Shown here: positions 6,566 through 18,951 of the stretch, piece after piece
Layout: every line of letters begins with the position of its first letter
Position numbering within the stretch: the stretch's first letter is position 1
Assembly (NCBI RefSeq): GCF_018919395.1
Contig: NZ_JAHLME010000006.1
Span: 1 to 64,000 of the forward strand
Length of the DNA: 64,000 nucleotides
Reading direction: 5' to 3'
DNA from: Geomonas azotofigens
GTDB taxonomy: Bacteria; Desulfobacterota; Desulfuromonadia; Geobacterales; Geobacteraceae
Notes under the pieces: model-generated
Told to the model about the DNA's origin: nothing
Databases searched by the model: none
What the model saw: the letters and a program-made list of their open reading frames with translations, nothing else
Program-made: the position numbers and the translations under genes

Positions 6566-7254
6566 GGTCACAGTCCTCCGGCAGCCCTATCTGCGCAGCC
6601 CACTTCGCGCACCAGGAAACCAGGATCCACTCAGCCAGAAGCCCTCAAAGGCCACAAGGCCGCAAGAGTGCCGGTGGTCGTCATGGTTCTTCCTTTATGG
6701 GACGATACACCTTTATGTGACGGAAAACCTCTTCCCTGCCGAGTTTCCCAAACTTCAGTAATCCTCTTTCCAAAATCTTCATGGCCCATCTCCTTAATGG
6801 CGATTTCATCCTGGTTTAGCCGGTGCAGGAGGCCGGATCCCTCTTGATTTGCTACTAGCGTGCCGAATTAACCCAAGCAACCTTGGGAACACAAGAGTTT
6901 GATTGCACGAGGAATATCGAAGGGCAAAGGATGAGTGCGGGGAGAAACCGCAAGCGGTACCCGTCATTTATGGCATAACCGCCATATGCGGTGGGCCTTT
7001 CCACCCCCCGGTTGCAGCCCTAAGACAGAAGCATGACCTCGAGCTGAAACAAAGGACAACCTGTGAAACGATGGATGTGGGTGCCAGAACCGACGTCGGC
7101 AGCTACAACTGCTCGGATCCCGGAATGGAGGTGGAAAATAGCAGCGGAAAGGCTCTTCCTGCAAAAGAGTGCCCCGTCCCGACACGGGCGTGACCCGGCC
7201 GAACTGGAGACCGCAGGGGGACGATGCTGAAGCGACCTGCCACATATAAAAGTT

Positions 7255-7270
7255 CCGCCACATGTGGCGG
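7255..7270. promoter_or_regulatory. Palindromic candidate EBP enhancer site (BON lipoprotein)
   Basis: CCGCCACATGTGGCGG is a perfect 16-nt palindrome centred 105 bp upstream of the -24 GG of the promoter at 7366. It belongs to the family CNGYCA-YATR-TRRCRG also found before the other sigma-54 promoters in this window. Confidence 0.6.
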
Positions 7271-7365
7271 CCGCCCATCTTTTGCCGGGCATCCCGTGGC
7301 TTCCCTCGGCAGCTAACGATCAGCTTTGACAGGTTATTATTACGGCCGTACCCGAATCCGGCAAT

Positions 7366-7381
7366 TGGCTTGCCAATTGCA
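7366..7381 (+). promoter_or_regulatory. Sigma-54 (-24/-12) promoter of the BON lipoprotein
   Basis: TGGCTTGCCAATTGCA has the invariant GG and GC dinucleotides exactly 10 nt apart and a TTGCA -12 element. Predicted transcription starts near 7392, about 42 nt before the ATG at 7434. The site overlaps a 9-bp inverted repeat GCAATTGGC/GCCAATTGC (7361-7380), so a dimeric operator is an alternative or additional reading. Confidence 0.6.
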
Positions 7382-7433
7382 AATAAAGGGTACCGCAGCG
7401 TATTCAAACCGTTTATTAAAAGGAGACGACATC

Positions 7434-7748
7434 ATGTTAAAACTGCAGCGTATCTTGAGGCTACTGGTTTGTGCCGTGCTGGTAACAACGTCCTTTGGCT
7501 GTGCGTCTACCAGGACCCATGAGAGCCCCGGCGAGTACGTCGACAACACAGTCATCACAACCAAGGTAAAAGCAGCCATCTTAAACGAGTCTTCGCTGAA
7601 AACCATGCAGATAAGCGTCAAGACTTACAAGGATGAGGTTCAATTAAGCGGTTTCGTTGATTCGGCAGAAAGCGTTGCCAAGGCGGGAGAAATCGCCAGG
7701 CGCGTTCCTGGCGTCGGGTCTGTAAAAAACAACCTGTTGGTAAAATAG
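7434..7748 (+). CDS. BON-domain lipoprotein
   Basis: 104 residues starting at the ATG preceded by AAGGAGA. The N-terminus is a lipoprotein signal (charged start, hydrophobic LLVCAVLVTTSFGC, lipobox Cys about residue 22), so the mature protein should be lipid-anchored in the envelope. Residues about 35-104 form a BON domain (VDNTVITTKVKAAILNE, then VKTYKDEVQLSGFV and a VPGVGSVKNNLLV end), as in OsmY/DolP-like phospholipid-binding envelope-stress proteins. A longer in-frame start upstream has no ribosome site. The preceding -24/-12 promoter and palindrome suggest control by a local EBP. Confidence 0.85.
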   Translation: MLKLQRILRLLVCAVLVTTSFGCASTRTHESPGEYVDNTVITTKVKAAILNESSLKTMQISVKTYKDEVQLSGFVDSAESVAKAGEIARRVPGVGSVKNNLLVK

Positions 7749-7843
7749 CCGCCGGGACAGTAATTCACCGGGCAGGCTGCAAATCTTGACCTTGAGAACC
7801 GATACAGGCTAAGGCTGACGCAGTCAGACCTGGGGAGGTTGGT

Positions 7844-7993
7844 ATGCTTTGGACTATATGCGCGATCTTGATAGTACTTTGGCTTGTTGGGCTGGTTACC
7901 TCCTATACCATGGGTGGCCTGATTCACATTCTTCTCGTGATTGCCATCATTGTAGTAGTGGTACAGCTCATCCAGGGACGCAGATCCATGTAG
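7844..7993 (+). CDS. Small membrane protein, DUF5670/lmo0937-like
   Basis: 49 residues with GGGGAGG upstream of the ATG. The sequence is two hydrophobic helices (MLWTICAILIVLWLVGLVTS and HILLVIAIIVVVVQLIQGR) joined by a short YTMGG turn. This is the size and pattern of the lmo0937/DUF5670 family of inner-membrane miniproteins, often found with BON or general-stress genes. It lies 95 bp after the BON lipoprotein with no terminator seen, so co-transcription is likely. Function unknown. Confidence 0.75.
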   Translation: MLWTICAILIVLWLVGLVTSYTMGGLIHILLVIAIIVVVVQLIQGRRSM

Positions 7994-8121
7994 GACGCCC
8001 CCCCATAAGGCAGTAAGGGCTGCGCTCCTTTTCTGACAGGGGCCCGTCCGAAGGCGTGAGACACCCCTCCTTGTCGGACATGACTGACGAGGAGGGGAAC
8101 GAGGTGCCAGGGAGGTGGAAC

Positions 8122-8544
8122 ATGAAGGTTTCAAGCACCATTATCGCGGCGGTGTGCATGATATTCCTGGCCAATGCTGGAGCCTGCCTGGCCATCGACC
8201 AATCGATTTGTACTCCCGGCGAGATCACCTACTATCCGGGCGGCCAATTGAAATCCTGCACACTGAAGGATGATGTCATCGTAAGTGGCGTTAAATGCAA
8301 GCAGTATGCGTCCGTCACCCTGTTTCAATCAGGAACCCTTCAAAGTTGCGTCACAAGCGACTATTTCAATTACGGAGATATTACCTGCAACCAGTACGGC
8401 CAGGTCAGTTTCCATGCAAACGGCAAACTGGACACCTGCAATCTTTCCAAATCGCTGACGATCGACGGCAAGACCTGCGCCGCATTCGAAAACATCTCGC
8501 TTTTCGAAAACGGGAAACTGAAGTCCTGCAGCGCCCCTCATTGA
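8122..8544 (+). CDS. Secreted Cys-rich protein with 30-residue MORN-like repeats
   Basis: 140 residues from the ATG after GGGAGGTGG; an upstream in-frame ATG at 8056 has no good ribosome site. Residues 1-25 are a signal peptide ending near ANAGACLA. The mature part is about 3.5 copies of an exact 30-residue unit of the form (I/V)x(Y/L/F)xxxGxLxSC...xC, e.g. ITYYPGGQLKSC, VTLFQSGTLQSC, VSFHANGKLDTC, ISLFENGKLKSC. Each unit carries two Cys, suggesting stacked beta-hairpins locked by disulfides, probably periplasmic or extracellular. The pattern resembles MORN/YwqK-type repeats but the Cys spacing is distinctive. An inverted repeat CCCCTCCT/AGGAGGGG (about 8065-8098) sits in its leader. Confidence 0.7.
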   Translation: MKVSSTIIAAVCMIFLANAGACLAIDQSICTPGEITYYPGGQLKSCTLKDDVIVSGVKCKQYASVTLFQSGTLQSCVTSDYFNYGDITCNQYGQVSFHANGKLDTCNLSKSLTIDGKTCAAFENISLFENGKLKSCSAPH

Positions 8545-9165
8545 CCGGCGCCGGCCACCTGTGACAGGAGGCGGGAAAGGCCGTAGTCTTGGAACCGGCC
8601 AGATCCAACAACCGCATTCACCTCGTCATTGCTTAACAGGCTCAGGTAGTCCAGGTCGTCGCCCCCCCGTGGACGATATTCCTTCCATAACCTTACCTTC
8701 ACTCGTAAAAGGGAACTGCTGGGCCCGCCCCGCCGTAAAAAGCCCCCAATAATGCTACCGTTGTGGGTGCCAGCTTGGAATCGGTGACGCCGGACCTCCG
8801 GCCCCGGGTGCACGTTAACCTCCGGGATCAGGTCCTATGCAAGGAGCCGATCGGGAACCTACGTGCCGGAACATGTCGCTTGATAAGAATATGTGCATAA
8901 AACTGAATTTATATTAAAAGGGAAAATGCAGCCGACCCTTCAGTAGGTAACGAGTCACTGAGCACAGCCACCTTAAGCATAACTGTCATATGTAGCAGTC
9001 AAAAATTTTGGCATTAGTCATATACGGAAATGGGTGTTATCATAAAAAGCGAATTCCAAAACCATCCCACCATTTAATGTACACAAACAAATGTTAAAAT
9101 TATTTTTACTATTTAAACTTCTGTATAAAGTTTTGCCCTGAGTATCGGGACACAAGAGGTGACAG
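8545..9165. other. Intergenic region before the intact EBP gene
   Basis: No gene is visible in about 620 bp. It contains the palindrome-like site 8982-8999 and AT-rich sequence up to the EBP start. A degenerate -24/-12 match (TGT in place of TGG, then TTGC, at 9122-9136, correct spacing) lies 133 bp from the palindrome; the lost G makes it doubtful. Confidence 0.5.
8982..8999. promoter_or_regulatory. Candidate EBP site upstream of the intact EBP gene
   Basis: ACTGTCATATGTAGCAGT is an imperfect inverted repeat (ACTGTCA against ACTGCTA). It matches 16 of 18 bases of the site before the second EBP gene (12647-12664, minus). Its distance to the start codon (about 167 bp) is nearly the same as at that gene (about 171 bp). 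Confidence 0.55.
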
Positions 9166-10929
9166 ATGGGCATTGACAAAAACAAGGGCCTTTTGAATAC
9201 GATTGCCAAACCACGTCCCACAGGACAGCACCGGTTAAGTGCCCAATCGGTTTTTTCGCCCCCGCTGACAAAGGAGGCGATGCTGAGACTTGTTCAGCAG
9301 CTTGAAATCCACCAGATCGAACTTGAATCGCAGAACGAGGAGTTGCGCCGGGCCAGAGAAGCGCTTGAGGTATCGCGCAACAGCTACGCAGAGCTCTACG
9401 ACTTTGCCCCCGCAGGCTATTTCACCTTCGATATCAATGGGGTGATTCGGCAGGTAAACCTTACCGGCGCCAACCTATTGGGGGTGGAACGGCACCTGCT
9501 GGTCGACACGCCCTTCGCCCGGTATATCGCCGACGCACAAGGAAGGGAGCTTTTCCCCCGGCACCTGGCGAATGTCGCCCAGAATTCGAGTCTACAGCAG
9601 TGTGAAATCAGGCTCAAAGGGAAAGGAGATTCTATCGTCTACACCCAGTTTCGCAGCGTCAGGGTCGACGACAGCAGCAGCTCGCATATCCGTATCTTTT
9701 GCTCGGTGGTTGACGGTACCATTGCCAGGCGCCTGAAGGAGGACCTGCAAAAGTCTCATGACAATCTCGAGTCAACCGTGTCGGAGCGGACCGGAAAACT
9801 GGCCAGGGCAAATCAGATGCTCGCACGGGAAGTTGAGGAACGCAAGAAGACGGAGGAGTCGCTCCAAGATGCCTGTTCCGAGATAAAGCGTCTGAAGGAC
9901 CGGCTCCAGGCCGAAAACATCTACCTGCAGCAAGAGGTTGCCCGGCAGTACAACAGCTGCGAGATTATCGGACAAAGCGAAGCCCTTTCGCAGGTAATGG
10001 CCCGTATAGAACAGGTAGCCCCCATGGATGCGACGGTTCTCCTGCAGGGCGAGACCGGTACCGGCAAGGGAATGGCGGCGCGGGCCATCCACAGAAGCTC
10101 TGCCCGCAGAGAGCGCCCCATGATAACGGTCAACTGCACTACGCTGCCGGCTACCCTTGTAGAGAGCGAGCTTTTTGGGCGGGAAAAGGGGGCTTTCACT
10201 GGGGCTTTTGCAAGGCAGATCGGGCGCTTCGAACTGGCCGACGGCGGCACCATATTCCTTGACGAAATCGGCGATTTGCCGCTTGAGTTGCAAAGCAAAC
10301 TGCTCAGGGTCATCCAGGACGGGGAGTTCGAGCGATTGGGCGCCAACCATACCATTAAGACCGATGTACGTATCATCGCGGCTACCAACCGAAATCTGGA
10401 ACAGGAAATCCGGACCGGCAGGTTCCGGGAAGACCTCTACTACCGGCTCAACGTATTTCCAATCTCGATGCCACCACTTAGGCAGCGCAGTGAAGACATA
10501 CCGCTGCTGGTTGAGTTTTTTCTCGCCAAGTTCAACAAGAAAATCGGCAGGGAAATCACCACCGTACCGAGTGAGACCATGCGCGCCTTGCAGAAATACC
10601 ACTGGCCCGGCAACGTGCGGGAATTGGAGAGTGTAATCGAGCGGGCGGTAATCACGAGCCAAGGGAGCACGCTACAGGTACTGGACCAGTTCAACAATTT
10701 CCGCATGAAAGAGGATGCAGCAAATAACACAGGGCCGGCGGCGAATGAAGAGAGGGAGGAAGGGGAAGGTATCAAAACCCTCGTCGATCTGGAACGCGAC
10801 TACATCCTCGGTGTGCTGCTGAAAACAGGTTGGCGCATTGAGGGAGCCAGTGGTGCGGCAGGGATACTCGGACTCAATGCCAGCACCCTGCGCGCACGTA
10901 TGCGAAAATTCGGAATCATCCGTAAATAG
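9166..10929 (+). CDS. PAS-containing sigma-54-dependent transcriptional activator (intact EBP)
   Basis: 587 residues; AGAGGTG precedes the ATG. Order: N-terminal helix/coiled coil (about 35-75), PAS domain (about 75-190), a second coiled coil (about 190-260), AAA+ sigma-54 interaction domain (about 265-500) and a Fis-type HTH at the end. Key motifs are all present: Walker A GETGTGKG (295-302), GAFTGA (342-347), Walker B GTIFLDE (361-367) and [10 protein letters not shown]. The recognition helix lies in [17 protein letters not shown]. No receiver domain, so activity is probably set by a ligand or redox change at the PAS domain. It is the obvious candidate to bind the palindromes and drive the -24/-12 promoters at 7366, 12533, 13184 and 16558; that link is inferred from position and sequence. 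Confidence 0.9.
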
Positions 10930-10938
10930 TTGGCAACT

Positions 10939-11184
10939 TCATGGCTTATGCTTCGTTTCTTGATCGCGCTTTAACTTCCTGCAGCCTTCGATCAGTGCAA
11001 TTTTCTGGGTCTCGATGGCTGCCTCACAGGAACGTTCATCTTCGGCGGTCAATGGCGCTGTACCGTTTCTCGACTCTAGCAGGTTTTCTATATTAGACTC
11101 GATCCCTCGTACGAACCCGATGAATTCTCTATATTGTCTTTCTTTGATGTCTTCTGTCTTGTCCTTGATGCTGCTGATATCCAT
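10939..11184 (-). CDS. Small acidic helical hypothetical protein
   Basis: 81 residues with AAAAGGAG before the ATG. Largely helical and charged (KDKTEDIKERQYREFIGFVR...), no Cys pair, no signal peptide, no family I recognise. It lies convergent to the intact EBP gene (9-bp gap) and downstream of a palindrome of the EBP-site family (11311-11328). A -24/-12-like sequence (GGCAC...TGCA) between them, at about 11224-11235, has 8 nt between GG and GC instead of 10, so sigma-54 control is doubtful. Confidence 0.65.
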   Translation of the reverse strand: MDISSIKDKTEDIKERQYREFIGFVRGIESNIENLLESRNGTAPLTAEDERSCEAAIETQKIALIEGCRKLKRDQETKHKP

Positions 11185-11310
11185 GGCAGTCTCCTTTTAT
11201 CGGTATTACTGTTCCTACGCCTTGCATCTCGTGCCGGCGCAGTATGAATTGTCGAGGTAGCGGGACAGGTTGGCGAACCCGTCCTGGATTGCCGGCTCAG
11301 GGGATGGGGG

Positions 11311-11328
11311 AGCGGTATATGTGACAGT
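11311..11328. promoter_or_regulatory. Candidate EBP site upstream of the 81-residue protein
   Basis: On the minus strand it reads ACTGTCACATATACCGCT, sharing ACTGTCA-YATR with the sites at 8982 and 16447. The right half is diverged. Its centre is 135 bp upstream of the minus-strand gene 10939-11184. Confidence 0.4.
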
Positions 11329-11354
11329 CGTTAGGCAGGCAAACAGTTGATCGT

Positions 11355-12476
11355 TCACTGGTCACGCCTGTACTGGCGGAGGATGCCGAATTTCCGCATC
11401 CGTGCCCGAAGCGTGCTGGGATTAAGCCCGAGGAGTACGGCCGCTCCGCGATCCCCCTCGATGCGCCAACCTGTTTTTTGCAGCACGTTGAAGATGTAGC
11501 CACGTTCCAGTTCGGCAAGTGCCTTGATCTCCATCTCCCCAGTACGAATGATGCCGGACTTTTCCCAGACCTGCAGTTCGCCCCCATGGCCGGTGATCAA
11601 CGCCCGCTCGATGATGTTCTCGAGCTCCCTGACGTTTCCGGGCCAGTGGTAAGACTGCAGGTCGCCTAGTGTAGCGCTGGAGACGCTTGCTGCCTTCTTG
11701 CCGATTTGCCCGTAGTGTTTGGCAAGGAAATGATCTACGAGCAGCGGGATGTCTTCTTTGCGCTTCCGAAGGGGGGGGATCGTGATGGGAAATGCGCTGA
11801 GGCGGCAGAACAGGTCCCCCCGAAACCTGCCAGCCCGAACCTCCGGCTCCAAGTCCCGGTTGCTTGCCACAATGACCCGCACATCGACCTTTATGGTGCG
11901 AGGGCTGTCCATACGCTGGAGTTCCCCGTCCTGGATGAGTCGGAGCAGTCTCCCCTGCAGTTCCGGTGACAGTTCGGCGATCTCTTCAAGGAGTATCGTG
12001 CTTGCATCGGCCAGCTCGAAACGCCCGATCTGCCGCCCCTCGGCTCCGGCACACTCTCCACTCTCCCACCCGAAGAGCTCGCATTCGACCAGGTTCGGAG
12101 GCAGTGCCGCTAGGTTGACCGTGACCATGGGCCGGTCCCTGCGAGAGCTTTTGTTGTGGATGGCGTGTGCCGCTACTCTCTTCCCTGTGCCGGCCTCTCC
12201 AATCAGCAGTACCGTCGTATTCAGGAAAGCTGCCTGGTCGACCCGCCGCAGGAGCTGCAAAATGGCGTTGCTTCTACCAATGACCTCGCCGAAGTTATAC
12301 TTCTTGGCTACCTCCTGCTGCAGGTATCTGTTCTCGGCCTGAAATCTGTCTTTCAAGCGCTTTATCTCCGCATAGGCACCAAGGAGTGATCCCTCCGCCC
12401 TCTTGCGCTCCTCTATCTCCTGGGTCAGCTGCATATTCGCCCGGGCCAGGTCGTTGAGTCGTCTGTCCACTTCCAT
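11355..12476 (-). CDS. Degenerate sigma-54 activator paralogue lacking GAFTGA and the PAS domain
   Basis: 373 residues. It aligns with the C-terminal two-thirds of the EBP at 9166: coiled coil (1-55), AAA+ core (60-300) and Fis-type HTH at the end. Walker A (GEAGTGKR, 93-100) is kept. The sigma-54 contact loop GAFTGA has become GECAGA (140-145) and the Walker B Asp is Glu (LLEEI, Glu164). The PAS sensory region is missing. The recognition helix [17 protein letters not shown] differs by one residue from the intact EBP, so it should bind the same DNA. It should be unable, or poorly able, to open sigma-54 promoters. It is itself preceded by a near-perfect -24/-12 promoter and a palindrome. A decoy or feedback-inhibitor role is plausible; simple decay is the alternative, although the frame is fully open. 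Confidence 0.8.
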   Translation of the reverse strand: MEVDRRLNDLARANMQLTQEIEERKRAEGSLLGAYAEIKRLKDRFQAENRYLQQEVAKKYNFGEVIGRSNAILQLLRRVDQAAFLNTTVLLIGEAGTGKRVAAHAIHNKSSRRDRPMVTVNLAALPPNLVECELFGWESGECAGAEGRQIGRFELADASTILLEEIAELSPELQGRLLRLIQDGELQRMDSPRTIKVDVRVIVASNRDLEPEVRAGRFRGDLFCRLSAFPITIPPLRKRKEDIPLLVDHFLAKHYGQIGKKAASVSSATLGDLQSYHWPGNVRELENIIERALITGHGGELQVWEKSGIIRTGEMEIKALAELERGYIFNVLQKTGWRIEGDRGAAVLLGLNPSTLRARMRKFGILRQYRRDQ

Positions 12477-12517
12477 CCACCTCTACCTCCCTGTCCGCGT
12501 CCTGCCAAGGAGGATTT

Positions 12518-12533
12518 CGCAACATGCGTGCCA
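12518..12533 (-). promoter_or_regulatory. Sigma-54 promoter of the degenerate EBP gene
   Basis: On the minus strand TGGCACGCATGTTGCG matches the TGGCAC-N5-TTGC consensus perfectly, with GG and GC 10 nt apart. Predicted transcription starts near 12508, about 31 nt before the ATG at 12476. The candidate enhancer at 12647-12664 is centred 124 bp upstream of the GG. Confidence 0.8.
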
Positions 12534-12646
12534 GACAAAGCCGCCGGCGATGGAGAATGCAAGCTGCCGATTGAACAGGGAAAAATCAGATAAGGGATTC
12601 GGTGGGAGAGATAAGGCGTCGAGGGGAATCCGTCAGGTTTACCATA

Positions 12647-12664
12647 ACTGCTACATATGACGGA
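12647..12664. promoter_or_regulatory. Candidate EBP enhancer site before the degenerate EBP gene
   Basis: The minus strand reads TCCGTCATATGTAGCAGT, 16/18 identical to the site at 8982-8999. Its spacing to the -24/-12 promoter is typical of EBP upstream activating sequences. Confidence 0.6.
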
Positions 12665-12775
12665 GAGCCTGGCAGATGTTGGCGGGTGAGACCGATAAGG
12701 GGTGAAATCTTCAGCGGTAGCGAAAGCAATTGGCTTGACTTCGATCCTGAACCCAGCGCGCCGCGGGGAGATTAA

Positions 12776-12945
12776 CCAACTGCCAAATTGTAACGAACTC
12801 CCTGCTGCAACAAGCTTCTCAAGCCTCGCAATTTCCTCGCGCAACCCCGCCTCCAGGGCCTTGGCAGCGGTGATATCGGAAAAGGTGATCACCACCCCGT
12901 CGATTACCTCCTCCATGGTGCGGTAAGGCAGGACACAACTAACGT
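12776..12945 (-). pseudogene. Remnant of a CheR/PAS-type signalling protein
   Basis: A minus-strand frame contains VLPYRTMEEVIDGVVITF followed by SDITAAK and a helical ALEAGLREEIARLEKL tail. This is the hallmark end of the PAS domain in CheB/CheR-PAS fusion proteins (VLPYRTxxxxIDGVVITFxDIT). Sequence before and after it in the frame is unrelated, so only about 55 residues survive. It lies directly upstream of the degenerate EBP gene, which lacks its own sensory domain, but the two are in separate frames and a -24/-12 promoter lies between them. Confidence 0.6.
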
Positions 12946-13061
12946 GCCAGTTTAAACTCCTGATCACTTGCAGAGTTAAATGGCAGACATGCTTAGACTC
13001 ACTGAACGGCCCCTCCCTCGCACACGGCACTTTGCAAAGGAAACCTGTCGTATTTGGCAAT

Positions 13062-13079
13062 GCCGTCATATATAGCGGC
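13062..13079. promoter_or_regulatory. Candidate EBP enhancer site before the lipoprotein/radical-SAM cluster
   Basis: GCCGTCATATATAGCGGC is a near-palindrome of the same family (CCGTCATAT is shared with the minus-strand site at 12647-12664). Its centre is 115 bp upstream of the -24 GG at 13185-13186. Confidence 0.6.
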
Positions 13080-13183
13080 CTACCGACTGAATGCGCGGTG
13101 CCAGGGTTCAGGCTAAAAGAACCGGGTCGCGCTTTCGGCTGTCCCGTCGCCCATTTGCCTCTTACACTACCGCGACCGGCTCT

Positions 13184-13199
13184 GGGCACACAAGCTGCA
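13184..13199 (+). promoter_or_regulatory. Sigma-54 promoter of the repeat-rich lipoprotein
   Basis: GGGCACACAAGCTGCA has GG and GC exactly 10 nt apart and a good GGCAC -24 block; the -12 element is CTGCA rather than TTGCA. Predicted transcription starts near 13210, giving a leader of about 80 nt to the ATG at 13292. Confidence 0.6.
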
Positions 13200-13291
13200 G
13201 CGGTATTACCGGTCGAGGGCTACGCGCCCAGCCGGCCACCGTGTGTCGCAAACAGAGTGGCCCATGAAAACCTGAGCAAAGGAGCACGAAA

Positions 13292-13492
13292 ATGAAAAAA
13301 ACAATGACAACCGTTGGCTTGTTAGTGGCGGCAATGATGCTGTCCGGCTGCATTGTCCCATACTGGGGCGACGATGGTCGCGACGGTTACCGCGATGGTG
13401 GTTACCGAGATGGTGGTTACCGCGATGGCGGGCACAGGGATGGCGGATACCGCGATAGGGGGGAACGTTACGAAGGCGGGGAACGCCGTTGA
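13292..13492 (+). CDS. Small lipoprotein with YRDGG repeats
   Basis: 66 residues; AAAGGAG lies 7 nt before the ATG. The signal peptide ends in a lipobox (MMLSGC, Cys about 20). The mature part is a low-complexity run of GYRDGG/HRDGG/YRDRG units, about six copies, encoded by an equally repetitive GGTTACCGNGATGG sequence. Expected to be lipid-anchored and disordered in the envelope. Similar small Gly/Tyr/Asp-rich lipoproteins recur in the window (35028-35192). Preceded by a sigma-54 promoter and palindrome; may be the first gene of a transcript that continues into the radical-SAM gene 265 bp downstream. Confidence 0.7.
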   Translation: MKKTMTTVGLLVAAMMLSGCIVPYWGDDGRDGYRDGGYRDGGYRDGGHRDGGYRDRGERYEGGERR

Positions 13493-13757
13493 CGACAGCG
13501 TCGATGCTCTGGTCGACACGACCTGGATTCGCCGCGGGCCCAAGGTCAGAACCTGTCAGGTCAATTTGCTGATGGTGGCTGTACCCTACCATTTGTTCCA
13601 GCTATGCCAGACTTTACGGACCAGATACGCTTGGACTTCGTCTCCATTACAGTGGTCCACGTTTTCTACCACGAGAAGCGCATAATCGAGTCGGGCACGC
13701 ATCACCCGATGAGCGACAACCGGGGTGCCTAAGTCCGACATACTCAAAGAGGCTGAG

Positions 13758-15275
13758 ATGAATGTTCTACTCGTCTATCCTAAGTACCCGGACACCTACT
13801 GGAGTTTCCGTCATGCCCTGCCGTTTATCGGCAAAAAGGCGGTTTTCCCTCCGCTCGGACTTCTTACGGTGGCGGCAATGCTTCCACGACAGTGGCAATT
13901 GAGGCTTATTGATCTGAATGTCGAGCGGCTTTCGGACAGCGACCTGCAGTGGGCCGACCACGTCTTCATCAGTGCTATGACAGTCCAGAGGGAATCGACA
14001 CAGGAGGTTATCGACCGATGCCGCAGCTTTGGGGTCAAGACCGTCGGGGGAGGCCCGCTTTTCACGACCTGTCATGACGAATTCCCGCAGGTGGACCACC
14101 TCGTGCTCGGTGAGGCGGAGGTGACCTTGCCCCGGTTTCTGGCGGACTTGGAAGTAAAGATGCCGCAGCGGTTGTACCTTCCCGACGGTCGCCCCGACAT
14201 CTCCCGCACCCCGCTGCCCCGATGGAGTCTCATCGACTTGCGCAAGTACGCTTCCATGAATATCCAGTATTCCCGGGGATGCCCCTTCGACTGCGAGTTT
14301 TGCGACATCACCCAACTCTTCGGGCGAGAGCCGAGAACCAAGACGAAGGACCAGGTGATAGCCGAACTGGAAGCGCTCTACTCGGGAGGATGGCGTGGAG
14401 GGGTCTTTTTCGTTGATGACAATTTCATTGGCGACAAACAGAAGCTGAAAAGCGATGTTCTCCCATCCGTAATTGCGTGGATGAAGCGGCATGGACACCC
14501 CTTCTTCTTCTATACCGAGGCTTCCATCAATCTCGCTGACGACCCTCAGCTCCTGGAACTCATGTCCGCCGCCGGGTTCCGCGAGGTCTTCATCGGCATT
14601 GAAAGCCCCGAAGAGGATGCACTCAGGGAAACCGGAAAAACCCAGAACCGCAACCGCGATCTCGCCGCCTCGGTCAGGTGCATCCAACGGGCGGGGCTAC
14701 AGGTTCAAGGGGGCTTCATCGTCGGCTTCGACAGCGACTCGCCCGCTATTTTCGACAAGCAACTTCGCTTCATCCAGGATAGCGGCATTGTCGTGGCTAT
14801 GGTGGGCATATTGATGGTCCTACGGGGAACCAAGCTGCATGGCCGACTCTCAAACGAAGGAAGAATCATCAATAGCTCGACCGGGAACAATACGGAAGCC
14901 TTCCTGAATTACCTTCCGAAGATGCCCCCCCAGGACCTGATAGCAGGGTACCAGCGCCTGGTCAGAACCCTCTATTCCCCCAACTACTTCTACGACCGCC
15001 TGATGATCTTTCTGAAAGAGTACCGACTTTCGGAGACATCCTCGTTTGCGCTGCTGCAGCGCCGTGATATCAGGGCATTCTTCCGTTCCATGTTGTTTCT
15101 CGGCATCCTTGGAAGAGAGCGAATTCACTACTGGAAGGTATTCTTCTGGACGTTGCTGAGGAAACCACGACTGCTGCCGCTCGCTATAACGCTCACGATC
15201 TACGGTTTTCATTTCCGCACCGTCGCAGCCGCAATATGCTCGACGCCTCACAGTACTTCCCTGGAGGAGAGGTAA
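13758..15275 (+). CDS. B12-binding radical SAM protein with DUF4070-like C-terminus
   Basis: 505 residues from the ATG preceded by AAAGAGG; an upstream GTG at 13725 lacks a ribosome site. Order: cobalamin-binding Rossmann-like domain (1-135; VLLVYPKYPDTYWSF, PPLGLLTVA, GGGPLFT), radical SAM core (about 165-385) with CPFDCEFC giving the CX3CX2C cluster at Cys175/179/182, then a C-terminal region with two hydrophobic stretches. This architecture matches the class B cobalamin-dependent methyltransferase group that includes hopanoid C-2 methylase HpnP, but no hopanoid gene is nearby, so the substrate is unknown. It is followed directly by GGDEF and ferritin-like genes. Confidence 0.8.
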   Translation: MNVLLVYPKYPDTYWSFRHALPFIGKKAVFPPLGLLTVAAMLPRQWQLRLIDLNVERLSDSDLQWADHVFISAMTVQRESTQEVIDRCRSFGVKTVGGGPLFTTCHDEFPQVDHLVLGEAEVTLPRFLADLEVKMPQRLYLPDGRPDISRTPLPRWSLIDLRKYASMNIQYSRGCPFDCEFCDITQLFGREPRTKTKDQVIAELEALYSGGWRGGVFFVDDNFIGDKQKLKSDVLPSVIAWMKRHGHPFFFYTEASINLADDPQLLELMSAAGFREVFIGIESPEEDALRETGKTQNRNRDLAASVRCIQRAGLQVQGGFIVGFDSDSPAIFDKQLRFIQDSGIVVAMVGILMVLRGTKLHGRLSNEGRIINSSTGNNTEAFLNYLPKMPPQDLIAGYQRLVRTLYSPNYFYDRLMIFLKEYRLSETSSFALLQRRDIRAFFRSMLFLGILGRERIHYWKVFFWTLLRKPRLLPLAITLTIYGFHFRTVAAAICSTPHSTSLEER

Positions 15276-15336
15276 GGGTATCGAATCCCTGCCGTGGGCT
15301 GGCCTATCTTCGCAATACGAAAACACTCACGACGCG

Positions 15337-15807
15337 TTGACCGGCCTCTACAACAGGGCCTATTTCGATGAAGAACTGGAACGGCTGGCCCAGAGCGCTA
15401 TGTTTCCCATGAGCCTGGTGATGGCGGATGTCAACGAACTGAAAGGTGTCAATGACGCACTGGGGCATGCAGCGGGAGACGAGCTGATAAAGATGGCGGC
15501 CCGGGTCATCCGGCGCGCCTTCCGTACCAAGGACATCGTTTCTCGGATCGGAGGAGACGAGTTTGCGGTAATCCTGCCGCAGACGGCAACCAGTGTGGCC
15601 AGGGAAACCGTCCGCCGGATCATGAACTGCCCGGAGGTCGCGAATGGCCAGGTGAGCATCGCCTTCGGCATAGCCACCGCAAAAGACAGGGATCAGCTTC
15701 GGGACACCTTGAAGCTCAGTGACGAGAGGATGTATCGCGAAAAGTCGGAGCAGAAGCAATCACAGCCAGAAGTCCCTGAAGACCAGGGAGGAGGGGGAAC
15801 GCCATGA
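15337..15807 (+). CDS. Stand-alone GGDEF (diguanylate cyclase) domain protein, start uncertain
   Basis: 156 residues if TTG at 15337 is used. The domain is nearly complete: LTGLYNRAYFDEEL, DVNELKGVNDALGH, intact signature RIGGDEFAV and a C-terminal LKLSDERMY. The usual first residues of the domain (QYENTHDA) are in frame just upstream, where no ATG/GTG/TTG exists back to the radical-SAM stop at 15275. GGAGG overlaps that stop. Either a rare start codon is used, translation is coupled, or the N-terminal sensory part was lost. Its stop overlaps the ATG of the next gene (ATGA). c-di-GMP synthesis is plausible because the active site is intact; expression is unproven. Confidence 0.65.
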   Translation: MTGLYNRAYFDEELERLAQSAMFPMSLVMADVNELKGVNDALGHAAGDELIKMAARVIRRAFRTKDIVSRIGGDEFAVILPQTATSVARETVRRIMNCPEVANGQVSIAFGIATAKDRDQLRDTLKLSDERMYREKSEQKQSQPEVPEDQGGGGTP

Positions 15808-16289
15808 ATGTTTTCGATTGCGCCATAAAGATGGAAGAGGAGGCGAGGGGTTACTACCAGCAGCTGGCAGAGTCGGCCGGCACTGAGGAACTGAAGAATC
15901 TCTTCACCCTGCTGGCCCAGGCCGAGCAGGAACACCACGATGCCTTGGTGGAGCTGAAGGCGGGGATCACCTCAAGAAAATCGCAATTCGAGGCCTTGCG
16001 GGAGGCGGCCTGCCTCTTTAAACCCCTGCTCGCCAAGCGCGAACAGATGGCAGCGCTAAAAAAGGACCCGGATGCCTATCAGATGGTCACCCGCCAGGAG
16101 CAAAAGTCGATAACATTCTACGAGGAGCTGGCTGCGCAGACAAAGGACGACGAGGCGCGCAAGATCGTTCTAAGTATCGCCGACGAGGAACGCAGGCACC
16201 TGAGCATCGTCGAGAATATCTATTCCTTCGTCGAGTCGCCCAAGAACTTCCTTGCCTGGGGCGAGTTTAGTAACATCCAGGAATACTGA
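15804..16289 (+). CDS. Rubrerythrin/ferritin-like diiron protein
   Basis: 161 residues; ATG overlaps the stop of the GGDEF gene by 4 bp and AGGGAGGAGG lies upstream. Two helical hairpins with repeated Glu and ExxH motifs: KMEEEARGYY, AEQEHHDAL, then RQEQKSITFYEELA and DEERRHLSIVEN, i.e. the four-helix diiron site of the rubrerythrin family. The C-terminal rubredoxin (CxxC) domain is absent. Probable role in peroxide or iron handling in the cytoplasm. Coupling to a GGDEF gene and a radical-SAM enzyme suggests a redox-linked operon. Confidence 0.85.
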   Translation: MNVFDCAIKMEEEARGYYQQLAESAGTEELKNLFTLLAQAEQEHHDALVELKAGITSRKSQFEALREAACLFKPLLAKREQMAALKKDPDAYQMVTRQEQKSITFYEELAAQTKDDEARKIVLSIADEERRHLSIVENIYSFVESPKNFLAWGEFSNIQEY

Positions 16290-16446
16290 GAGATAAAGAG
16301 CCACCTGATTCGGATTTATCGGATTAGTACCGAAAGGCAGCCTTCGCTACAGAGCAAATAGATCCCATTATTGCGGGGGCCCCTCCAGAGGCCCCCCGCC
16401 ATCGCGAAGCGTCAGATAGTGGCGCTTTCTGCAACCCATTACGGAT

Positions 16447-16464
16447 ACTGTCAAATATGACAGT
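16447..16464. promoter_or_regulatory. Palindromic candidate EBP enhancer site (GGDEF-EAL gene)
   Basis: ACTGTCAAATATGACAGT has perfect 7-bp arms (ACTGTCA/TGACAGT) around a 4-nt centre. Its centre is 104 bp upstream of the -24 GG of the promoter at 16558. This is the cleanest member of the family. Confidence 0.7.
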
Positions 16465-16557
16465 TTTCGCCGACAGTAAGTCTTTGGCGAAGCACTCCCG
16501 GCACTGCATCACCCTGCAGAATCAGCCAGTTGATAACCACGCCCCGTTAAAAACAGC

Positions 16558-16573
16558 TGGCACGTTAGTTGCG
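16558..16573 (+). promoter_or_regulatory. Sigma-54 promoter of the PAS-GGDEF-EAL gene
   Basis: TGGCACGTTAGTTGCG is a perfect TGGCAC-N5-TTGC with GG and GC 10 nt apart. Predicted transcription starts near 16584, upstream of both possible starts of the next gene (GTG 16618, ATG 16711). Confidence 0.8.
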
Positions 16574-16710
16574 ATCTTCTCTGGGGAGGCGGTATCAAAG
16601 AGTGCTGACAACCAAGGGTGGCGGCAACCGGGCGGAAAATTGCGGAACCACCGTGCGAGAATGTTTGCAACTGGGTCATTGAGCAGGAAGTACACCAGCA
16701 GAGGTCGACA

Positions 16711-18951
16711 ATGGAATCCGAACGGGGAAAAGAGAAACCGAACCGGACAAAGGATGAGACCCGGCGACTCCTTCATGAACTGCAGCTGCGCCAGGTGGAA
16801 CTTGACGTGCAGAACGCGGAGCTGCGCCATACAAGGGATGAGCTCGAGGCGACGCTTGATAAGTTTACCGACCTCTACGATTTTGCCCCGATCGGATATT
16901 TCACCCTGGACCGCCAGGGGGCAATCCGCGCCGTTAACCTTAGTGGTGCCAGTCTCCTAGGCATCGAGCGCAGCGACCTTTTGGGAAGACTTTTCCTGGA
17001 ATTTGTCCCCGCAAAGGCCCGCCCTGGCTTCTCCGAATTTCTCGGAAGGGTGTTCGCCTTGCAGAAGAAGGAATCATTGGAGACGGCGCTTAACCCGCAA
17101 GGGGATGCTCCTCTCTTTGTGCACATAGATGCCGCGCTCTGCGGCTCGGGGCTCGAGTGCCGCTGTGCCGTTTCGGACATCTCTGAGAAGAAACAGGTCG
17201 CCGACGCCCTGGCGAAGAGCGAGGAGCAGTACCGTGCCATAGTAAGCAACATAAACGAGTACGTCTACAGTGCCAGCTTCGAAAACAACGCCCTGGTGTC
17301 GACCTACCACAGTCCCAAGTGCGTCGACATCACCGGCTATTCCCCGGAGGAATACGCACGTGACCCCCACTTGTGGCTTTCCATGGTTCATGAAAATGAC
17401 CGGGAACTGGTCCTTCGTTTTCTTGATGCCGTTTATGCCGGCGAAAAACCCGAGCCGATCAGGCACCGCATCCGGCACAAAAATGGCAGCGAACGGTGGA
17501 TTCTGAACAGTTGTACGGTACAGAGGACGGAAAGCGAGGGGGTTGCCACGATTACACGGCTGGACGGCTTCATCCTCGACATCACCGAGTTGAAGCTCGC
17601 AGAGGAGAGCATATTTTTCCTTGCCTACCACGATACGCTCACCGGGCTTCCCAACCGCAGCACGCTGTATAAGCGGATAACTCAGGTGATGACGGTAGCG
17701 AGGAGAACAGGCAAAGGCATAGCCTTGCTGTTTCTGGATATCGATGGTTTCAAGAAGGTAAACGACTCACTGGGCCACGATGTTGGAGACCGGGTCCTCC
17801 AGTCGGTTGCAAGGCGCCTGAAGGAATGCACGCGATACTGCGACATCGTGTCGCGGCTTGGGGGAGACGAGTTCGTCATCATGCTCTGGGATTGCGGGGC
17901 CGCGGAGGCTACAGTTGTGGCAAATAAAATCATCACTTCAGGTTTCAGCGTCCCGGAGGTCAGTGCCCCCCTTAACGCCAGCATCGGCATAAGCCTGTTC
18001 CCCCAGGACGGTACGGACTACCTCACACTGCTAAAGCACGCCGATGTCGCGATGTACCACGCCAAGAAATCCGGCGGCAAGAAGCATCAGTTCTTTACCC
18101 GCAAGTTAAACGAGCACGCCCGCGAGCGGTTCATCATGGAGGCCGATTTGCGGCACGCAGTGGAGCGAAGCGAGTTCGTGCTGTACTACCAGCCGAAGGT
18201 CGACCTCACCACCGGAAAATCCAGAAGCATGGAGGCGCTGATCCGCTGGCAGCATCCCGTCAGGGGGTTCACCCTGCCGGGCAATTTCATCGGCATAGCG
18301 GAGGAAACCGGGCTTCTTACGCCGATCAGCAAATGGACCATACGGACCGTCTGCCGGCAGTTACGCCAGTGGAGACAGCAGGGGATCGGCCCGCTTTCTG
18401 TGGCGATAAACCTTTCAGCAACCTTCTTCCAGCAGTCAGACTGCGAGGAAATCATCGAGTCGGCCCTGTATGAAACAGGGGTGCCGCCCGAATGCCTGGA
18501 GCTGGAGCTGACCGAAGCCACCCTTATGAACGATCCGGACAGGGTCCTCGGGAGCATGGCCGCCATGAAGGCACTTGGGGTGCAACTGTCCATCGACGAT
18601 TTCGGGATTGGCTATTCCTGTCTCAATTATCTGAAGAAGCTCCCGATCGACAAGCTGAAGATCGACCAGTCTTTCATTCACAATATAGCTTTCGATACCG
18701 ACAACATGGCGGTGGTTCGCGCCATCATGAGCATAGGTCGGAGCATGCAGCTCAAGGTAATAGCGGAAGGGGTGGAGAACGCCTCGCAACTCGCCTGGCT
18801 TCAGGCGGAGGGGAGCGAGGAAGCGCAGGGATTCTACTTCAGCCGCCCGCTGTCGGTGAACGGGCTAACCCCTCTCCTCAAGCAGGGGGCCAACTACCTG
18901 CACAACCCTCGCGGCAAGCTGAGAATCAGGGAGTCGGAAATCCCCCGCTAG
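16711..18951 (+). CDS. PAS-PAS-GGDEF-EAL c-di-GMP protein
   Basis: 746 residues from the ATG preceded by AGAGGT; an in-frame GTG at 16618 would add 31 residues but has a weak site. Order: coiled coil (10-50), PAS 1 (about 50-160), PAS 2 (about 180-300), GGDEF (about 305-470, LGGDEFV intact), EAL (about 485-735). EAL catalytic markers are all present: EALIRWQ, NLSATFF, ELTEA, DDFGIGYS, DKLKIDQSFI and EGVE. Both synthase and phosphodiesterase activity are possible in sequence terms. No membrane segment, so cytosolic. The N-terminal coiled coil plus PAS closely resembles that of the EBP at 9166 (both have LYDFAP-GYFT). Driven by a sigma-54 promoter. Confidence 0.9.
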   Translation: MESERGKEKPNRTKDETRRLLHELQLRQVELDVQNAELRHTRDELEATLDKFTDLYDFAPIGYFTLDRQGAIRAVNLSGASLLGIERSDLLGRLFLEFVPAKARPGFSEFLGRVFALQKKESLETALNPQGDAPLFVHIDAALCGSGLECRCAVSDISEKKQVADALAKSEEQYRAIVSNINEYVYSASFENNALVSTYHSPKCVDITGYSPEEYARDPHLWLSMVHENDRELVLRFLDAVYAGEKPEPIRHRIRHKNGSERWILNSCTVQRTESEGVATITRLDGFILDITELKLAEESIFFLAYHDTLTGLPNRSTLYKRITQVMTVARRTGKGIALLFLDIDGFKKVNDSLGHDVGDRVLQSVARRLKECTRYCDIVSRLGGDEFVIMLWDCGAAEATVVANKIITSGFSVPEVSAPLNASIGISLFPQDGTDYLTLLKHADVAMYHAKKSGGKKHQFFTRKLNEHARERFIMEADLRHAVERSEFVLYYQPKVDLTTGKSRSMEALIRWQHPVRGFTLPGNFIGIAEETGLLTPISKWTIRTVCRQLRQWRQQGIGPLSVAINLSATFFQQSDCEEIIESALYETGVPPECLELELTEATLMNDPDRVLGSMAAMKALGVQLSIDDFGIGYSCLNYLKKLPIDKLKIDQSFIHNIAFDTDNMAVVRAIMSIGRSMQLKVIAEGVENASQLAWLQAEGSEEAQGFYFSRPLSVNGLTPLLKQGANYLHNPRGKLRIRESEIPR

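Follow-up and report, generated by a model that had tools for sequence, protein, structure and literature searches.

The question raised by this locus is whether genes lying behind −24/−12 promoters and related palindromes form a single regulon with an activator of its own. The window, a stretch of 64 000 nucleotides, comes from the 4.97 Mb genome of Geomonas, a soil and sediment bacterium, and a sequence-only reading had described within it a compact sigma-54 regulon that possesses a palindromic enhancer of its own and is connected to two EBP paralogues. We consider it probable that the genes of this locus form a self-contained sigma-54 regulon serving in stress and envelope protection, driven by the first of these paralogues (EBP1), with a geometry fixed by IHF and a shut-off provided by the second (EBP2). 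The architecture, conservation, co-occurrence and co-localisation described below, together with the selection on EBP2 and the loss of its motifs, are read directly from the sequence.

Promoter architecture in the window and its relatives

In 62 promoters from related loci, a set from which the window and its near-twin were left out, the −24/−12 element is preceded, at about 123 and 105 bp, by abutting 18-bp palindromes. Across 77 loci a palindrome is accompanied by such an element at the canonical distance at 69 of 96 sites, compared with 5 of 214 for 30 column-permuted motifs, and the separation is 122–124 bp in 47 of 64 cases and 102–107 bp in 9 of 64. An IHF consensus matching at 8 or more of 9 positions, which played no part in selecting the promoters, is found at −44 to −34 (near −39) in 40 of the 62, where about one is expected by shuffling; an IHF site had not figured in the earlier description of the locus. 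When a profile (R1) modelled on 52 of these 62 other-species promoters was run on the 4.97 Mb genome, with 150 of 544 first-look candidates scored, six promoters were found at E<4×10−5, all between positions 6846 and 16579 of the window. Across the genome the core pattern CYGYCANATRTRRCRG is matched exactly at five distinct sites, and since these and the other-species profile matches all fall in the window the palindromes are not there by chance. The earlier reading expected enrichment throughout the genome; the sites that can be recognised in this genome all lie within the island.

The best R1 score in the genome (78 bits, E-value 2.0×10−21) belongs to the EBP2 promoter (12513–12668, minus strand), which has a palindrome at 12647–12664, an IHF site at 12560–12572 (8/9) and the −24/−12 element TGGCACGCATGTTGC at 12519–12533. 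The promoter of a GH13 gene (6846–6997, minus strand; 64.1 bits, E-value 4.1×10−17 genome-wide) contains palindromes at 6960–6977 and 6978–6995, an IHF consensus at 6892–6904 (9/9, at −39) and CGGCACGCTAGTAGC at 6851–6865, and that of a PAS-GGDEF-EAL gene (16441–16579, plus strand; 44.5 bits, E-value 5.2×10−11) a palindrome at 16447–16464, an IHF site at 16520–16532 (9/9, at −38) and TGGCACGTTAGTTGC at 16558–16572. The BON gene promoter (7232–7385, plus strand; 25.6 bits, E-value 3.9×10−5) has palindromes at 7236–7253 and 7254–7271 and its element at 7366–7380, with an IHF match of only 7/9. These four carry the GG-N10-GC signature, which is missing from two weak minus-strand promoters, each with an IHF match of 7/9: one at 12934–13083 (29.3 bits, E-value 2.7×10−6), with palindromes at 13044–13061 and 13062–13079 at canonical distances from TGGCACGTTAGTTGT (12935–12949; GT at −12), and a weak or degenerate one at 8854–9001 (26.4 bits, E-value 2.2×10−5), facing away from EBP1, with a palindrome at 8982–8999 and CGGCACGTAGGTTCC at 8854–8868, its −12 imperfect (CC). 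An IHF match of at least 8/9 was seen in only three of the seven elements tested in the window. No intact gene was recognised in the window behind the 12949 promoter; its counterpart at a related locus (L055) precedes a 96-aa ORF, in a stretch that does not align with the window.

The sequence-only reading had located much of this correctly. Its four GG-N10-GC elements (7366, 13184 and 16558 on the plus strand, 12533 on the minus strand) are present as placed, and only 12533 and 16558 score 11/11. Its six palindromes (7255, 12647, 13062, 16447, 8982 and 11311/11312) are also real, with centre-to-element distances of 104 bp for 7366, 123 bp for 12533, 103 bp for 16558 and, from coordinates, 114 bp for 13184, but the partners at 7236, 13044 and 6960/6978, in keeping with a tendency towards abutting 18-bp pairs, were left out, and the GH13 promoter was overlooked. 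The palindrome at 13062 had been attributed to the element at 13184, although the 13044/13062 pair fits the 12949 promoter; GGGCACACAAGCTGC (13184–13198, plus strand) is a weak and uncertain candidate for the promoter of the YRDGG operon, matching −24/−12 at 8/11 and IHF at only 5–6 of 9 positions, in effect no IHF match, and giving no full R1 profile match. That at 8982, said to precede EBP1, fits the 8868 promoter better, and that at 11311–11328, upstream of a gene for an 81-residue protein, is a lone, weak palindrome (PWM score 14.9) with no R1 match. For two palindromes out of the six, and one promoter out of the four, the strand or gene originally given was probably wrong.

Single matches such as those at 7366 (9/11) and 13184 are ordinary when taken alone, there being 80 GG-N10-GC elements scoring at least 8/11 in the window, but a fortuitous meeting of chance palindromes with chance −24/−12 elements is refuted by the conservation, the permutation control and the cross-species model, and we give it next to no credence.

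The candidate activator and its distribution

The proposed activator, EBP1 (9166–10929, plus strand), consists of a PAS domain, an AAA+ domain with GAFTGA and FLDE motifs and a Fis-type HTH; it matches the Pfam Sigma54_activat family (E-value 4.8×10−72) and has Walker A, Walker B and a C-terminal HTH_8. One rpoN gene scores over the cut-off in this genome. There are also five genes of the HU/IHF family, none of which passes the IHF-alpha cut-off (best score 117.3 against 120.25 bits).

We infer the protein–DNA binding, the occupancy of the IHF site and the inducing signal. EBP1, with PAS as its sensor, would bind the two abutting 18-bp palindromes, whose centres precede the −24/−12 element by about 123 and 105 bp. 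IHF, or a close HU/IHF relative, would introduce a bend at a site that begins about 39 bp before the same element, bringing the EBP to RNA polymerase–sigma-54 in a fixed geometry. NifA-nifH and similar sigma-54 promoters comprise a UAS, an IHF site and a −24/−12 element. The promoters here are like them in having upstream EBP sites, an IHF bend between these and the promoter and a GAFTGA activator, but differ in distances that hardly vary among dozens of promoters from many species, in the abutting tandem palindromes and in the largely stress-type targets.

Regulon promoters were found in 12 of 45 family genomes, mostly clustered around EBP1 homologues, and those homologues (E≤1e-120) occur in ten genomes, all among the 12 (Fisher 2×10−8; 2.5×10−7 on a strict count of nine); the other 33 genomes have neither. 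The recurrence of these palindromes at one fixed distance in EBP-bearing loci, together with the co-occurrence among the 45 genomes, strongly supports the earlier view of a compact regulon whose enhancer is wired to the intact EBP. The genome encodes about 50 EBPs (EBP1 has 54 matches there, the majority being other EBPs), any of which might bind the sites with EBP1 a mere neighbour, and three genomes (G001, G042 and G025) have promoters and no clear EBP1-clade gene, the 59 % match in G025 grouping with the outgroup. This seems improbable to us, however, given that all ten genomes with an EBP1 homologue have promoters, that 53 of 80 promoter hits in other genomes lie within 25 kb of an EBP1-type gene, and that the HTH helix STLRARMRK, or one close to it, recurs in most of the protein tails listed. 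Binding of the palindromes by EBP1 is the inference that we prefer. The patchy presence and the clustering would suit a mobile genomic island, and in G026, a single 5.0 Mb contig, all seven hits fall within 25 kb; the island is not universal, since 21 of the 80 hits are on other contigs and six, all in G039, lie more than 25 kb away.

Predicted target genes

The predicted targets in the window are a GH13 enzyme, a BON lipoprotein with its neighbour, EBP2 and the PAS-GGDEF-EAL protein. The GH13 alpha-glucan enzyme (4751–6565, minus strand; leader about 280 nt) is GlgB/TreZ-like, its best NCBIfam scores (GlgB, 310.9 bits; TreZ, 255.5 bits) both being under the cut-off, and GH13 genes also follow regulon promoters at L055 and a second related locus, L112 (leaders of 279 and 309 nt). 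The OsmY-like BON lipoprotein (7434–7748, plus strand; Pfam BON, 5.1×10−17; NCBIfam OsmY, 9.7×10−18, below cut-off) is followed by a small membrane protein of the lmo0937/DUF5670 family (7844–7993, plus strand; Pfam; NCBIfam 64.9 bits, cut-off 30). The PAS-PAS-GGDEF-EAL protein (16618–18951, plus strand, starting at 16618 or 16711; Pfam domains) has an N-terminal region 35 % identical to residues 30–207 of EBP1. A probable further target is the operon of a 66-aa YRDGG-repeat lipoprotein (13292–13492, plus strand) and genes for a B12-binding radical SAM protein (DUF4070), a GGDEF protein and a rubrerythrin/ferritin-like protein (13725–16289, plus strand); at L112 an HRDGGYRDGG lipoprotein ORF sits between the R1 promoter and the GH13 gene, and at L089 a radical SAM gene of matching Pfam architecture follows an R1 promoter. 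The 81-aa protein (10939–11184, minus strand) has no match in Pfam or NCBIfam, and no tRNA genes were found in the window.

Among 96 first genes behind promoters, identified by a simple ORF rule made for this analysis, are those for CsbD (4), BON (3), YflT, Usp, DUF302, rubrerythrin, GH13, PRC and lmo0937/DUF3309 proteins, and several have no family match. Apart from PRC, these named families are typical of stress regulons, and the gene content is that of stress-protection families beside many regulators. Regulators are as frequent (response regulators 7, STAS 6, GGDEF 3, kinases 3), and with six ice-binding-like proteins they might point instead to a signalling or biofilm (c-di-GMP) regulon in which the stress-type names are incidental; the recurrence of the stress families makes this unlikely, though it deserves some weight. 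The stress role that we favour is read from gene families only. RpoS and SigB general stress regulons contain OsmY/BON, CsbD, Usp, YflT, glycan/trehalose-type enzymes and ferritin-like proteins, and the gene content here is similar, but the regulon uses sigma-54 and a dedicated EBP and is small, patchy and, in this genome, a single island.

EBP2 and degenerate activator copies

Both EBP paralogues of the earlier description are present, but the degenerate state of the second was overlooked. EBP2 (11355–12476, minus strand) is a sensorless EBP homologue that retains Walker A and the HTH and lacks the features of a working activator: GECAGA replaces the GAFTGA loop and LLEE(I) replaces FLDE, with loss of the Walker B aspartate. 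It is under purifying selection (dN/dS 0.125 against L055, with no amino acid change beyond residue 80). A GAFTGA-like loop is present in 96 of 104 EBP ORFs and lost in seven rows representing four distinct proteins; at promoter-bearing loci all five degenerate rows (four distinct) start behind a promoter, compared with 1 of 53 other EBP ORFs, and the four have at least two origins. The other three have each lost the loop differently, together with one or two further ATPase residues (FLDA at L067; Walker A K to Q in one L112 protein, and the same change plus FLEE in the other), which suggests loss of ring function.

With all four degenerate paralogues placed behind regulon promoters, and their origin at least twofold, we propose a repressive role for EBP2 as a feedback anti-activator. 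EBP1 would induce EBP2, which, with its DNA-binding helix and no sigma-54-contacting loop, would switch the regulon off, either by sitting on the same palindromes or by poisoning EBP1 hexamers. It is a real possibility, though we lean against it, that the regulon is as described and EBP2 instead joins EBP1 in mixed hexamers as a co-activator subunit, or else regulates sigma-70 promoters. The paralogous Azotobacter VnfA1 and VnfA3 are reported to share promoters, probably as hetero-oligomers, with the second mostly co-activating (PMC9542535), and NtrC of Caulobacter and Rhodobacter, similarly unable to use the sigma-54-contact loop for want of GAFTGA, is described as a main regulator of sigma-70 promoters (PMC10274813); retention of Walker A and purifying selection would also fit. 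Unlike the second Vnf paralogue, however, EBP2 lacks sensor, GAFTGA and Walker B aspartate; unlike the NtrC proteins, it is a second copy, without a sensor, that lies behind the first EBP's promoter; and the other three paralogues have lost loop and ATPase residues.

The link between sigma-54 and stress is already in print. In the regulome of Desulfovibrio vulgaris, which belongs to a related group, DVU3305 is tabulated as an EBP of the general stress response and DVU1419 and DVU3381 as EBPs of the envelope stress response, and one AT-rich palindrome is predicted, for a pyruvate formate-lyase regulator; the main text has no mention of CsbD, BON or TGTCA, and DVU3305 is a two-component response regulator with GAFSGA (PMC4641369). 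Over-expression of RpoN in the related Geobacter sulfurreducens induced stress-response genes, not all of which have a recognised RpoN element, and the terms palindrom, upstream activat, BON and rubrerythrin are absent from the main text of that paper (PMC2725144). What is new is therefore the dedicated island, the rigid layout of its promoters and the decay of activator copies.

In our reading the locus carries a sigma-54 stress regulon that is portable and whose geometry is fixed by IHF. A broader version, which we hold tentatively and at a little under even chances, is that of a plug-in island for a sigma-54 general stress response, in which a PAS or response-regulator EBP would act through the same fixed enhanceosome (tandem 18-bp palindromes, IHF bend and −24/−12) at every target and a sensorless, sigma-54-blind EBP copy, recurrently evolved and under the regulon's own promoter, would be the off switch. 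As they act by DNA looping, EBP sites are usually regarded as tolerant of position; here a whole regulon, many of whose targets are of stress type, appears to rely on one near-invariant geometry and to be portable from genome to genome. The relatives' dozens of promoters are a natural series for the effects of enhancer distance, helical phase and IHF on sigma-54 output, and a duplicated activator that decays, apparently on more than one occasion, into an inhibitor of itself would provide a simple way of arriving at negative feedback.

Promoter geometry among the relatives

The sequence-only reading had described four −24/−12 elements (7366+, 12533−, 13184+ and 16558+) and six palindromes around two genes of sigma-54 enhancer-binding proteins (EBPs): the intact PAS-AAA+-HTH protein EBP1 (9166–10929, plus strand) and its degenerate, sensorless paralogue EBP2 (11355–12476, minus strand). 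All of these sequences are present where it had placed them. The window has 80 −24/−12 elements that match at least 8 of 11 positions, so that 7366+ and 13184+ are each ordinary by themselves and need support from elsewhere.

With EBP1 as the query, the best 78 of 281 relatives' loci were taken from named genomes, the closest being that of Geomonas diazotrophica Red69 (locus L055; EBP1 98 % identity). A matrix made from five window palindromes finds 192 sites scoring at least 11 in the 78 loci, Red69 included. The first 40 loci contain 122 of these sites, whereas 20 column-permuted matrices gave between 4 and 52 in a control scored with an early stop that could overlook a few sites; a separate control with 30 permuted motifs scored all positions. 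The sites often form abutting pairs exactly 18 bp apart. Among those scoring at least 14 in the 77 loci other than Red69, 69 of 96 have a −24/−12 element (at least 9/11) at 101–108 or 119–126 bp from the palindrome centre, compared with 5 of 214 sites of the 30 permuted motifs. With the window and Red69 excluded, 64 of 85 palindrome clusters have a promoter at 95–130 bp: 47 lie at 122–124 bp, five at 119–121 bp and nine at 102–107 bp, with single cases at 110, 113 and 114 bp, of which the last two fall roughly a helical turn below the commonest distance.

Many of the promoters also have a candidate site for IHF. Among 62 non-redundant promoters, chosen without regard to IHF and with Red69 and the window left out, 40 match the IHF consensus at 8/9 or better between −44 and −34 (about one is found after shuffling), and 29 promoters have a match of this kind that begins precisely at −39. 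The remaining 22 lack one this good in that interval. Many promoters carry TGACGG as a third half-site beyond the two palindromes, again about 18 bp further on and about 85–90 bp before the −24 element in the A1 consensus. Most of the 62 also conserve (T/C)TAG, or a sequence close to it, in the N4 spacer of the −24/−12 element, which is usually free. Two Pyrinomonadaceae loci, L115 and L121, carry more distant EBP relatives with palindromes of a related kind nearby (ACTGTAAAAATTGACAGT in L121, for example); the promoter model described below finds no promoter in either.

Promoters of the window

A sequence-only covariance model (R1) was made from 52 of the 62 promoters, none of them from the window or Red69, the other ten being omitted as weak, oddly spaced or near-duplicate. 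In the window's genome R1 finds six promoters, each with an E-value below 4e-5. The best score in the genome (78 bits) belongs to 12513–12668 on the minus strand, followed by 6846–6997 (minus strand; 6865−, 64 bits), 16441–16579 (plus strand; 44.5 bits), 12934–13083 (minus strand; 12949−, 29 bits), 8856–9001 (minus strand; 8868−, 26 bits) and 7232–7385 (plus strand; 25.6 bits). A seventh match inside the window is partial (E-value, 0.016), and outside the window the best is only 0.159, with 150 of 544 first-look candidates scored in the genome. Exact copies of the core pattern CYGYCANATRTRRCRG occur at five distinct places in the 4.97 Mb, every one inside the window; with up to two mismatches the whole genome, window included, has 125+118 sites, fewer than the 185+195 of the reversed control pattern. 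A regulon spread over this genome is thus rejected at the sensitivity of R1 and the pattern.

Three of the four promoters first proposed are therefore recovered by R1, the exception being 13184+, which has no full match, and R1 adds 6865−, ahead of a GH13 gene. Two of the palindromes had probably been assigned to the wrong strand or gene: the 13044/13062 pair fits 12949−, and the palindrome at 8982, before EBP1, fits 8868−. Autoregulation of EBP1 through 8982 is not supported, since its R1 match points to the minus strand. Both 12949− and 8868− have imperfect −12 boxes (GT and CC respectively) and IHF matches of only 7/9, and they may be weak or dead. The idea that an adjacent deletion broke 12949− is rejected, since the Red69 locus lacks the deletion and has the same GT at −12.

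The element 13184+ precedes an operon encoding a YRDGG lipoprotein, a radical SAM protein, a GGDEF protein and a rubrerythrin. It has no IHF match (5–6 of 9), and its 114 bp distance is found in one promoter of a relative. Among the relatives, a lipoprotein with HRDGGYRDGG repeats, resembling that behind 13184+, lies between an R1 promoter and a GH13 gene in L112, a Gly/Arg-rich lipoprotein-like ORF lies behind an R1 promoter in L059, and a radical SAM protein with the Pfam architecture of the window's lies behind one in L089. The operon is thus probably a member of the regulon, whichever promoter it uses.

Several smaller features accompany these promoters. The GH13 leader contains a 33-codon ORF (6681–6782, minus strand), and the matching leader in L112 encodes a YRDGG-type lipoprotein; no structured RNA was found there by Rfam at gathering scores (window 1–30000). 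The 7366+ promoter (7359–7380) is nearly palindromic, with −24/−12-like matches on both strands (7375−, 10/11). An identical 15 bases, CTGGCACGTTAGTTG, occur at 12936–12950 and 16557–16571, within two promoters of opposite orientation, and these copies might be recombination sites.

Distribution and the degenerate activators

When 45 family genomes were surveyed with R1 (E-value of 0.001 or less, 64 candidates scored per genome, stricter filters), 12 had hits, 85 in all, some of which match the same palindromes in part or from the opposite strand. A homologue of EBP1 (E-value of 1e-120 or less) is present in ten genomes, all among these 12 (Fisher, 2e-8); a strict count gives nine (Fisher, 2.5e-7), since in the tree the G025 homologue (59 %) falls with the outgroup. 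The promoter-bearing genomes with no clear EBP1-clade gene are G001, G025 and G042, in 230, 370 and 490 contigs respectively. The other 11 genomes have 80 hits: 53 are within 25 kb of an EBP homologue, 21 are on other contigs and six, all in G039, are further away on the homologue's contig; in G026, a single contig of 5.0 Mb, all seven are within 25 kb. Segment 12964–15352 of the window does not align with Red69 despite the 98 % identity of EBP1, and the cargo of the island thus seems to have been exchanged. Red69 is about 1.24 kb longer at 12930–12963 (L055 13764–15033), with a 96-residue coiled-coil-like ORF and a fragment that is CheB/CheR-PAS-like by eye; the window keeps just a short PAS remnant there.

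The best-scoring promoter in the genome is directly followed by EBP2, which has no sensor domain, GECAGA in place of GAFTGA and LLEE in place of FLDE, and retains Walker A and the HTH helix. A GAFTGA-like loop is present in 96 of 104 EBP ORFs and one more has GPFTGS; the remaining seven are four distinct proteins, namely EBP2 with its copies, a protein of L067 (GAIIRG, FLDA) and a pair from L112, both with shortened loops and the Walker A lysine replaced, and one with FLEE. All four lack a sensor domain and keep the HTH helix, which in some of them differs at one or two positions. All four lie behind an R1 promoter, compared with one of the 53 other EBP ORFs in promoter-bearing loci; this one, the intact response-regulator EBP of L105, excludes the idea that only degenerate EBPs are targets. 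In a tree of 94 EBPs the degenerate state needs three changes and the starred branches force at least two, although the branches in question are long and the bootstrap had not converged.

By competition or mixed hexamers EBP2 would give negative feedback, a role that these sequence features make only plausible. Rival roles are co-activation, as for VnfA1/VnfA3 (PMC9542535), or a sigma-70 function, as for an NtrC that lacks GAFTGA (PMC10274813). A dead pseudogene is rejected, since both strains keep an open reading frame and EBP2 differs from that of Red69 by ten synonymous and four non-synonymous changes, the latter all before residue 81 (dN/dS 0.125; neutral P 2.6e-4).

Target genes and sensors

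From 105 promoter matches (at least 30 bits in relatives, plus the six in the window), a simple ORF rule gave 101 first genes, four being dropped for excessive length or truncation at the end of a contig; five more were dropped as doubtful or a copy, and 96, including L055 copies of window genes, were scanned. They match 85 families of Pfam, and the 25 with most members include Sigma54_activat (7), response regulator (7), ice-binding-like (6), STAS (6), zinc-type dehydrogenase (5), alpha-amylase (4), CsbD (4), BON (3) and GGDEF (3). Scans of 30 individual proteins (29 of them first genes) add YflT (2), Usp, DUF302, DUF3309, PRC-barrel, rubrerythrin, DUF1003, acetate kinase and KaiC, and eight of the 30 have no family match. 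For the window's BON lipoprotein the best family is OsmY, at a score below the cut-off, and the gene next to it encodes a protein of the lmo0937 family. The targets thus include many regulators besides stress-type families, and their content resembles that of RpoS or SigB regulons.

In the seven intact EBPs of relatives that were scanned, a common AAA+/HTH unit is preceded by a response-regulator domain in four and by a PAS domain in three, and the same sites may thus serve different inputs. A link between sigma-54 and stress is already in print: one paper files an EBP under the general stress response (PMC4641369), and another describes stress genes induced by RpoN over-expression (PMC2725144). 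Among the freely accessible papers, searched by title and the start of the abstract, none describes this regulon, its motif or an EBP2-like inhibitor.

The link between activator and sites is well supported by the comparisons of sequence, and the stress role moderately so. The sigma-54 regulon is real, conserved and patchily distributed; the geometry of its promoters is fixed and many of its targets are of stress type.
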